Part shown: one piece after another, positions 13,337-15,268 of the stretch
How positions within the stretch are numbered: the first letter of the stretch is position 1
Layout: every line of letters starts with the position of its first letter
Made by a program: the position numbers and the translations under genes
Assembly: GCA_029261305.1 (NCBI GenBank)
Contig: JAJDBO010000017.1
Location: 1-16,713, forward strand
Source of the DNA: Nitrospirales bacterium
GTDB taxonomy: Bacteria > Nitrospirota > Nitrospiria > Nitrospirales > UBA8639
Reading direction: 5' to 3'
DNA: 16,713 nt
The notes under the pieces: generated by a model
Told to the model about the DNA's origin: nothing
Seen by the model: only the letters and a program-made list of their open reading frames with translations
The model's database searches: none

Positions 13337-13352
13337 AGCAATTCACATTCCA
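13337..13352 (-). promoter_or_regulatory. Sigma-54-type -24/-12 promoter element of nxrA
   Basis: The minus strand reads TGGAATGTGAATTGCT. Against the consensus TGGCACG-N4-TTGCW it keeps TGG, the G at the seventh position and all of TTGCT, with exactly 10 bases between GG and GC. It is identical in 13 of 16 positions to the element before the regulator gene (15253-15268). Transcription would begin near 13326, leaving a leader of about 179 nt. The neighbouring gene encodes a sigma-54 activator, which makes the match much more credible. Confidence 0.62.
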
Positions 13353-13440
13353 ATTTTAACTATCTAATTGAAAAAGACCTTAACGTATTAAAAAATAAAA
13401 GAAATTACAGAATCAAAAAGAAACAGACAGGGAAGGAACA

Positions 13441-13497
13441 CCTACGATTACTCACGATCACTCACGATAAACGCGACCAAGTTGCGAGTTATCGCGA
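13441..13497. promoter_or_regulatory. Candidate activator-binding region: three 10-bp tandem repeats plus inverted repeat
   Basis: Three consecutive 10-mers, cctacgatta, ctcacgatca and ctcacgataa, occupy 13441-13470, one per helical turn. The last one begins an inverted repeat, CGATAA (13465-13470) and TTATCG (13489-13494), which also encloses TGCGA-N4-TCGCGA (13483-13497). The block lies about 115-170 bp upstream of the predicted nxrA start, the usual location of enhancer sites for AAA+ sigma-54 activators. Confidence 0.5.
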
Positions 13498-13553
13498 AGC
13501 TCAAATTCTTGCAGAGTCTGTAATAATACTTAACAGAGAATAGGTACTAGCAA

Positions 13554-15152
13554 CTAGATAAAAATTGCTAACTCCCACCAATAGGAGGGTAAGAATACAA
13601 CCGTGAGGAAACTTTTAAGGGACTTTGCTGAGGGACTTGGTCTGCTGATAGCCAATTTCTTCATGCGACTGCGTAAGGTGCTGGCGTTGATCCCTAATCG
13701 TGCGGCAACGCCAGACGGGCCACTAATTCTCCATCCCGCCAATTCGAGTGCATCGATGATCTTAGACTTCTCGGAATCTTTTAAAGTATGCGAGCCGACA
13801 GATTTCTCCTGACTTGTTGGTGCTTGCAAAAGGGCCTTACTGACTTTGAGTTCATGACCGCTGGAAAGGATCATCGCTCGCTCAATCACATTTTGCAGCT
13901 CGCGAACATTGCCTGGCCAGGCATAGCTCAGTAAACGCTCCAAACAATTTTCTTCAATGATATGGCAGGATCGCTTGAACTTCGCCTTGAATTGGTCCAT
14001 GAAATGCCGAGTTAAGAGAGGAATATCGCTAGCACGCTCGCGGAGGGGAGGGAGATTGATGGGAAACACATGGAGGCGAAAAAATAAATCAGACCGAAAC
14101 CGACCATTCGCCACGGCGACGCTTAGGTCACTATTTGTGGCCGCAATGATTCGAACATCCACAGGGACTGACTGCATAGCCCCAAGTCGATCTATCAAAC
14201 CATCTTGCAGGACCCGTAACAACTTGGCCTGGGCCTCCAAAGACATTTCCCCAATTTCATCGAGAAACAACGTCCCTCCGTGGGCTAACTCAAAGCGACC
14301 AATTCTACGCTGCTCTGCACCGGTAAAAGCCCCACGTTCATGACCAAATAATTCACTTTCAACCAGGCCAACTGGCAATCCCGCGCAATTGACTCGAATA
14401 AACGCTTTATCGTGGCGCGGGCTCCGTTCATGAACAAACCGAGCCAATAATTCCTTCCCCGTCCCTGTTTCGCCCGTGATCAAAACCGTGGTGTTTGTCG
14501 GCGCCACGGCTTCGGCTAATTCCTGGACTTGCTTTATTACGTAGCTGGATCCGATCATGGCACCGAAATTGTGCGTTTCACGAATTTCTTCCTGAAGGTA
14601 TTGATTTTCTTCCGCCAACTGTTGACGCAGTAAATCAATCTGCTCATAGGCTTGAACATGATCAATGGCCAACGCGATTTGGGTCGCGACCTGCCCCAGG
14701 AACCCCAAATCCTCCGGCTCAGGGTCTCCAGACTGAAGGCTCCCGATATTGAGCGTTCCAATACAGGCATCTCCAACCATCATGGGTAAATTAATCATGC
14801 GGCCGAGGCCTTCTTGATAATAATATTGGTCTTCAAAAAAGACTTGTTCATCTTGGAGGCACGGACGAATATGAATCTTTTGGTTTTCATAGACCCACCC
14901 AATGGCACTTCCCTCACGAGGAATGATCACATCGGACTGCAGGACGACCTTGGGGAGAGAGGTTTCCACCACATAAAACCGGAAGGCTTCGATCTCGGGA
15001 TGGTACAGCGTAATTCCGGCTCGCTCCCATGGAATGATATGCCGAATCTGTCCGGTAATCGCCCTCCAAAAACTATCGGAATTTCGTTGGGAATTTAAAA
15101 TGTTTGTCACTTCCAACAATGCACGATAATAATTCGTTGAAACGGTGTTCAC
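13554..15152 (-). CDS. Sigma-54-dependent transcriptional activator (GAF–AAA+–Fis)
   Basis: This 532-residue bacterial enhancer-binding protein has a GAF sensor domain (~10-170), a short predicted coiled coil (~168-192), an AAA+ sigma-54 interaction domain (~196-430), and a Fis-type helix-turn-helix (~456-500). The AAA+ domain shows Walker A GETGTGKE (227-234), GAFTGA (274-279, contacts sigma-54), Walker B GGTLFLDEIGE (292-302), FFRLHVFPINLPPLRER (sensor II region) and WPGNVREL. There is no receiver domain, so it should respond to a ligand through GAF as in the NorR/FhlA/NifA group; the ligand is unknown. It starts at GTG 15152 with GAGG 5 bases upstream. It sits directly before nxrA on the same strand, which points to nxrAB as its target. 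A 28-residue tail after the HTH ends in hydrophobic VVFLPSYWWELAIFI, unusual for the family. Confidence 0.95.
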   Translation of the reverse strand: MNTVSTNYYRALLEVTNILNSQRNSDSFWRAITGQIRHIIPWERAGITLYHPEIEAFRFYVVETSLPKVVLQSDVIIPREGSAIGWVYENQKIHIRPCLQDEQVFFEDQYYYQEGLGRMINLPMMVGDACIGTLNIGSLQSGDPEPEDLGFLGQVATQIALAIDHVQAYEQIDLLRQQLAEENQYLQEEIRETHNFGAMIGSSYVIKQVQELAEAVAPTNTTVLITGETGTGKELLARFVHERSPRHDKAFIRVNCAGLPVGLVESELFGHERGAFTGAEQRRIGRFELAHGGTLFLDEIGEMSLEAQAKLLRVLQDGLIDRLGAMQSVPVDVRIIAATNSDLSVAVANGRFRSDLFFRLHVFPINLPPLRERASDIPLLTRHFMDQFKAKFKRSCHIIEENCLERLLSYAWPGNVRELQNVIERAMILSSGHELKVSKALLQAPTSQEKSVGSHTLKDSEKSKIIDALELAGWRISGPSGVAARLGINASTLRSRMKKLAISRPSPSAKSLKSFLTVVFLPSYWWELAIFI

Positions 15153-15252
15153 AGTGTCCTCATAGTCAATTAAAAAAATGATAAATAATTTTGAAGGTAT
15201 GTTTCATTTCAGAACAACTACTCATGAGTCAAGGCACAAGGAGAATTTAAAA

Positions 15253-15268
15253 AGCAATTTACAGGCCA
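15253..15268 (-). promoter_or_regulatory. Sigma-54-type -24/-12 promoter element of the activator gene
   Basis: The minus strand reads TGGCCTGTAAATTGCT. It matches TGGCACG-N4-TTGCW at every specified position except two in the -24 half, with the correct 10-base spacing between GG and GC. The predicted start is near 15242, about 90 nt before the GTG. Since the gene itself encodes a sigma-54 activator, autoregulation or control by a second activator is implied. Confidence 0.62.

Follow-up and report, generated by a model that had tools for sequence, protein, structure and literature searches.

Among described systems, those closest to the locus considered here are built around enhancer-binding proteins of the NifA, NtrC and FhlA types. 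The likenesses are a GAF sensor, an AAA+ domain with its GAFTGA motif, a Fis-type helix-turn-helix (HTH), a -24/-12 promoter and what appear to be paired boxes 100-150 bp upstream. The difference lies in the target, which here is nitrite oxidoreductase (NXR), and the predicted box, CCNYGA-N4-TCRNGG, is to our knowledge not the box of NifA, NtrC or FhlA. That is, the mechanism would be a standard one, with the target, nxr, along with the promoter code what is new. The domain class is shared as well with E. coli FhlA, and several relatives of the activator are named 'formate hydrogenlyase transcriptional activator'. That name looks automatic, and no formate or hydrogenase protein was found among the five proteins searched in Pfam from the window, i.e., from the whole stretch of 16,713 nucleotides that was analyzed.

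NXR is the energy source of very widespread nitrite oxidizers, in which several similar nxrAB copies are unequally expressed (PMC6606698, PMC8115632, PMC12342949; each in excerpt). That nxrAB in N. moscoviensis is adjoined by regulators of the sigma-54-dependent type, and that its copies differ in expression, has been published (PMC6606698, with reference to Lucker 2010, Koch 2015 and Ushiki 2018), and adjacency of a regulator to nxrAB therefore is already known. The N. moscoviensis regulators are NITMOv2_4531, 4536 and 4539 (PMC6606698), and a 66%-identical relative of the activator considered here adjoins nxrB there; going by gene order and tag numbering, that relative probably is the NifA-like NITMOv2_4531, of transcriptome rank 14. 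The excerpted text of PMC6606698 names regulators and their expression, with no promoter or binding site. Likewise, no report of nxr sigma-54 promoters, boxes or a box-neighbor rule was found among the publications searched, with Lucker 2010 and Koch 2015 PNAS being publications which might mention promoter sites.

The genes of the window upon which this analysis centers are as follows.

8309..9598, minus strand: nxrB, iron-sulfur beta subunit, 429 aa, with 4Fe-4S Pfam domains
9710..13147, minus strand: nxrA, alpha subunit of nitrite oxidoreductase, 1145 aa with a TAT signal (Pfam Molybdopterin, Molybdop_Fe4S4, TAT_signal), ATG start at 13147
13554..15152, minus strand: activator gene, GAF, AAA+ (sigma-54 interaction) and Fis-type HTH by Pfam, 532 aa, GTG start at 15152

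The activator's nearest relative among the genomes compared is 86% identical and is found in locus L141 (genome G040), where the gene order, ogt–activator–nxrA–nxrB, is the same as that of the window. NxrA is 96.5% and NxrB 99.5% identical to the L141 proteins, with NxrA up to 95% identical to proteins of Nitrospirales MAGs among the best 80 of 189 stretches. The AAA+ domain of the activator (Pfam PF00158, 232.8 bits; HTH_8 was found too) matches solved chains of ZraR, the NtrC family and FleQ. In an alignment with 119 relatives, GAFTGA (274-279), GETGTGKE and LFLDE (Walker A/B) are conserved and, within the GAF stretch, Cys 130 is the only cysteine conserved at 95% or above, a point of interest for comparison with NO sensors of the NorR type, in which the GAF domain carries ligands to a mononuclear iron. 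Judged by this domain set, which is that of bacterial enhancer-binding proteins, the neighbor of nxrA is a true sigma-54 activator.

Also present in the window, downstream of the nxr genes and on the opposite strand, is an open frame of 848 aa whose N-terminus looks signal-like (4405-6951, plus strand). Between ogt and the activator gene is a 184-bp element (15595-15778, minus strand) with inverted AGGGCACCTCTAAAAACC ends. It looks to be MITE-like, that is, given these inverted-repeat ends, its absence from the L141 intergenic region and an arm that is seen in no other fetched locus. No Rfam match was found in the window at gathering cut-offs.

Three candidate promoter elements precede the activator gene and nxrA.

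13337..13352, minus strand: putative sigma-54 -24/-12 element of nxrA, TGGAATGTGAATTGCT, predicted start near 13326
15253..15268, minus strand: putative sigma-54 -24/-12 element of the activator gene, TGGCCTGTAAATTGCT, predicted start near 15242
15338..15365, minus strand: sigma-70-like TTCAGA-16-TATAAT before the activator gene, a possible basal promoter

The sigma-54 consensus is TGGCACG-N4-TTGCW, and sites were scored against a weighted form of it with a maximum of 16. A reading made earlier from sequence alone had pointed to the first two of these elements as near-identical, and they do agree in 13 of 16 positions, both with GG and GC doublets 10 bp apart (GG-N10-GC) within that consensus. 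The leaders of ~90 and ~179 nt which that reading had proposed fit as well, the 5' edges of the 16-mers lying 116 nt upstream of the activator GTG and 205 nt upstream of the nxrA ATG. Within the window alone, both 16-mers are only modestly unusual by motif score: a loose pattern allowing one mismatch has 10 matches versus 8.74 expected, and four sites score at least 14 versus 1.05 expected, four being also the maximum over 40 shuffles. The other two such sites are intragenic (15957-15972, antisense in ogt, and 11387-11402, in nxrA). The activator site has a shuffle p of 0.007 within 300 nt of the activator start, and the score of the nxrA site was reached in 0 of 500 shuffles of the -300..-101 region. 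It is from position and conservation, rather than from score by itself, that these two sites derive their credibility.

As to conservation, L141 has TGGCCTGGAAATTGCT 136 nt before the activator gene and TGGAATATGAATTGCT 214 nt before nxrA, with one base changed in each, and the flanks of the two sites diverge considerably between window and L141. The sequence-only reading had named loss of the 16-mers from relatives retaining the genes as what would count against it; upon looking, L141 is seen to keep both. Six further fetched loci with the activator gene and then nxrA (L142, L145, L152, L154, L111 and L112) have candidate -24/-12 elements before both genes, such that within the G019 family all eight fetched loci in which the activator is directly before nxrA, window counted, have a site before each gene, with scores of 12-14. 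In L146, L147 and L150 the activator is instead ~4 kb before an nxrA copy, one without a good -24/-12 element (best 10-11). This activator is found beside nxrA in some copies only, and the activators that are so placed are spread over several subclades of the activator tree. Tandem orthologues without nxrA alongside are seen in L115 (13228-17594) and L117 (11651-16123), where they surround a flavin-reductase-like gene, with genes resembling hemerythrin and DUF488 close by (all named by eye). The 64% copy of L115, a gene seen in L110 as well, is preceded by a -24/-12 element of its own; none was found within 208 nt upstream of the 63% copy of L117, the same gene as in L109.

The -24/-12 element before nxrA recurs in much of the order. 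A survey of 78 loci from one genome scan (the best 80 of 189 stretches) plus the window gave 72 usable 300-nt upstream regions, in which the best score within -300..-101 reaches 12 or more in 64 versus 10.7 expected, 13 or more in 46 versus 2.5, 14 or more in 30 versus 0.45, and 15 or more in 15 versus 0.05. Within the same loci, sites scoring at least 14 number 29 in 14,271 positions before nxrA versus 70 in 1,777,319 positions elsewhere, i.e., they are 52 times denser before nxrA. With L111 and L112 added, the 74 regions fall into 35 sequence clusters, the median score being 13 or higher in 22 of these and 12 or higher in 29. In a later set, 39 of 66 nxrA regions score at least 13. A search of 12 relatives turned up the gene for RpoN, that is, sigma-54, in 11, with G018 the exception. 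Given conservation in L141 together with the 46 of 72 regions at 13 or above, nxrA very probably is a sigma-54 gene in most Nitrospirales.

Might nxrA instead be transcribed constitutively by sigma-70, with its -24/-12 matches due to chance? NXR is very abundant, its share of peptide spectral counts in N. marina being 4% (PMC8115632, in excerpt), and a minority of nxrA copies are without a recognizable -24/-12 element: 8 of the 68 copies lacking this activator upstream score below 12 (L020, L021, L034, L053-L055, L065 and L076), and 9 of the 66 newer regions have no such element either. The excess over shuffles at scores of at least 13 is 18-fold, however, with recurrence across upstream regions that otherwise are little alike, and a sigma-70 scan of the minus strand in the gap between activator gene and nxrA yields just one 9/12 site (13242-13213). 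Constitutive sigma-70 transcription we thus hold to be very improbable. Before the activator gene, the sigma-70-like site is weak, as sites of that grade number 6 in the window versus 4.4 expected.

Some nxrA copies next to other activators have TTGTA as their -12 rather than TTGCA/T (L228, L230, L232, L234, L238, L245, L275, L277, L279, L285, L293 and L294). This variant is seen in 10 of 14 newer regions beside another activator, and also in N. moscoviensis (L293, L294 and, at a score of 11, L021), which suggests that TTGTA copies beside other activators may be a distinct promoter sub-type. L021 had been taken to be N. moscoviensis nxrA_5, without a -24/-12 element, an assignment that was dropped as gene order and a later locus point to a neighboring copy. 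Gene order and the fetched locus suggest that nxrA_5 is the L293 copy, with variant TGGCACAGGGCTTGTA at -149. It is nxrA_5 that is the most transcribed nxrA copy of N. moscoviensis (PMC6606698, in excerpt).

Upstream of the -24/-12 element of nxrA are two further candidate features.

13482..13497, minus strand: box A1, TCGCGATAACTCGCAA, predicted binding site 145 bp before -24; TCGCGACAACTCGCAA in L141
13442..13467, minus strand: box A2 (predicted), consisting of overlapping, degenerate TCGTGAGTGATCGTGA (-115) and TCGTGAGTAATCGTAG (-105); TCGCGAAAATTCGCGG at -115 in L141

These are putative examples of what we call class A, i.e., paired CCNYGA-N4-TCRNGG boxes ~145 and ~110 bp before -24 in nxrA copies that are directly behind the GAF activator. 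The window's own class-A boxes are degenerate and weak. The best full box before nxrA scores 9/12 (shuffle p = 0.357), which is not significant by itself; three ATCGTR half-sites at 10-bp steps (13439-13468) have a shuffle p of 0.0012 for a pattern that was noticed before being tested. The position of box A1 matches that of CCACGAT-N2-ATCGTGG in N. defluvii-type loci. All six N. defluvii-type loci with this activator (L057 and L066-L070) have dyads before nxrA, these being CCACGAT-N2-ATCGTGG plus a weaker copy, ~142 and ~108 bp before -24, with the N. defluvii stretch CCACGATTGATCGTGG a class-A candidate. Boxes of similar form occur in lineage-IV loci at ~-145 and ~-113; both lineage labels are our own assignment, made with the help of family searches. 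Matching to the N. defluvii-type consensus at -150..-138 is higher in eight lineage-IV activator loci, three of which share much sequence, than in 52 copies without the activator (Mann-Whitney p = 5.7e-5), and the difference at -118..-104 is less clear (p = 0.064). Box symmetry alone is not above controls in lineage IV (p = 0.18 and 0.11), and palindrome symmetry as sole test of class A was abandoned there as not significant.

A different palindrome, GYTACC-N4-GGTARC or class B, appears to characterize nxrA copies that are without a nearby regulator. Beginning with the 68 nxrA loci lacking the activator directly upstream, eight with less than 700 nt of upstream sequence and eight without a -24/-12 score of at least 12 were dropped, leaving 52. 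This palindrome is present at 10/12 or better in 44 of these (0.47 expected) and at 11 or better in 30 (0.01 expected). Another activator is upstream in six of the 52 (L023, L058-L061 and L078), of which L061 alone reaches 10, and without those six the palindrome is found in 43 of 46. With the upstream regions grouped by shared 10-mers (global identity at 60% gave a single cluster and was dropped), the palindrome is present in 33 of 39 groups having little sequence otherwise in common, mostly ~100 or 190-260 bp before -24. Two lineage-IV genomes, G004:C16:48254 (L004) and G012:C62:68027 (L012), have a perfect GTTACC-N4-GGTAAC ~650 nt before nxrA as well as a weaker class-B palindrome 100 bp before -24. 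The palindrome was tried also as a marker of further co-regulated genes, with a single exact match in N. moscoviensis (L161) that is G+C-rich, has no nxr by eye and probably is due to chance.

As the box consensus came from the first loci, only a later set of regions represents a clean test, and the prediction of box class from neighboring regulator was fixed in advance of testing upon that set. Ninety-two new upstream regions were picked by eye among the matches listed (175 genomes, family of N. moscoviensis), with some eligible regions missed, and removal of three for insufficient length and of 23 as duplicates or as regions seen before left 66. With an orthologue of the activator upstream (n = 9; all of the N. 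moscoviensis family, five closely resembling earlier loci), a -24/-12 score of at least 13 is found in all nine, class A in eight and class B in none. With no activator match upstream, in up to 2.5 kb of DNA (n = 43), 34 score at least 12, 28 have class B versus 0.52 expected, and one has class A. With another activator upstream, 43-50% identical (n = 14), all 14 score at least 12, and class A and class B are both found in none. Class A thus is seen in 8/9 with versus 1/57 without the activator (Fisher p = 1.4e-8), the corresponding p for class B being 4.7e-8. Considering only regions unlike earlier ones, class A is seen in 3 of 4, class B in 24 of 35, and neither in 11. The prediction, that is, held in these 66 new regions.

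We consider it quite likely, then, that nxrAB is sigma-54-transcribed with the neighboring GAF activator acting through upstream boxes. The -24/-12 element at 13337-13352 would serve RNA polymerase with sigma-54 as the promoter of nxrAB. The GAF-AAA+-HTH protein would occupy the paired boxes at ~-145 and -115/-105 and then loop over, with the nxrA promoter opened upon a signal sensed by the activator's GAF domain. The sequence itself shows the genes, the sites with their conservation, and that box type goes with the neighboring regulator; binding, activation, signal and self-activation are what we infer from it. One may argue that nxrA, while sigma-54-dependent, is regulated by a trans-acting activator, with the adjacent activator serving other genes: most surveyed nxrA copies bearing -24/-12 are without a nearby activator, the L115 and L117 orthologues are clustered with reductase-like and other genes, and the window's boxes, as noted, are degenerate. 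Against this, activator-adjacent copies are without the class-B palindrome, i.e., 0 of 14 at 10 or better in the first set and 0 of 9 in the later one, and mostly have class-A boxes; furthermore, exact CCACGA-N4-TCGTGG is found at seven places in three N. defluvii-type genomes, of which four are before nxrA and the remaining three inside long open frames or at their ends. Regulation of these copies solely in trans therefore seems unlikely.

The question of whether the activator also switches on its own gene, a closed positive loop via its own sigma-54 promoter, is compatible with action of that activator upon nxrAB. Given this promoter, the activator gene probably would be switched by an activator, perhaps by itself. 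The -24/-12 element is present before the activator gene not only in the window and L141 but also in L142, L145, L152, L154, L111 and L112, and these last six, of the eight loci, have there class-A-like boxes of 10-11/12. No class-A box is recognized before the activator in the window (8/12, p = 0.95) or in L141, however, and it is before the window's gene that the weak sigma-70-like site is found. 'Solo' copies, i.e., those of at least 61% identity that are not directly before nxrA, score at least 13 in just 7 of 14 (L110, L113, L146-L149 and L153), the others being L109 (208 nt of upstream available), L143, two in L144, L150, L151 and L155, and the six solo copies scored for boxes reach at most 9/12. 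N. defluvii-type and N. moscoviensis copies have no significant site (best 13, L057, p = 0.09). With conserved -24/-12 elements and boxes in six loci, as weighed against the lack of such boxes in the window, L141 and the six scored solo copies, self-activation may be viewed as plausible, with chances about even.

Of the sequence-only reading, then, what stands is the pair of conserved sites, the recurrence of -24/-12 before nxrA and the true sigma-54 activator; its activator-driven activator gene stands in part, the promoter but not a recognized box being kept. Taken as a general picture, its 'complete local circuit' was overstated, since most surveyed nxrA copies have the -24/-12 element with no nearby activator and with the other palindrome.

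The nxrA leader has in addition a second Shine-Dalgarno-like element.

13255..13267, minus strand: second Shine-Dalgarno-like element, GGGAAGGAGGTGG, ~100 nt upstream of the true ribosome site

A match of at least 10/13 to GGAAAGGAGGTGG at -68..-120 is found in 34 of 74 nxrA leaders, a control stretch having given 0 of 74, and is most pronounced in lineage IV and in certain N. defluvii-type copies; no consistent start codon following it was evident by eye. It resembles the STAB-SD of Bacillus cry3A, which is mRNA-stabilizing, and by analogy may protect an abundant nxrA transcript.

For the Nitrospirales as a whole, we lean modestly toward a view in which three or more sigma-54 circuits divide the nxr copies between them. 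Class A would be controlled via the GAF activator and CCNYGA-N4-TCRNGG, class B via a trans activator and GYTACC-N4-GGTARC, and class C via another adjacent sigma-54 activator, often with TTGTA as the -12. Class B we take to include most copies without an adjacent regulator, those of some comammox strains among them. If so, then nitrite oxidation would have in the class-B protein a master regulator. Differences among nxrA copies in the signals to which their regulators bind could explain separate switching of those copies. A promoter code which assigns copies to regulators would make the pairing of copy, activator and signal testable, as for example with the rise of N. marina NxrA_1 at low oxygen (PMC8115632, in excerpt).
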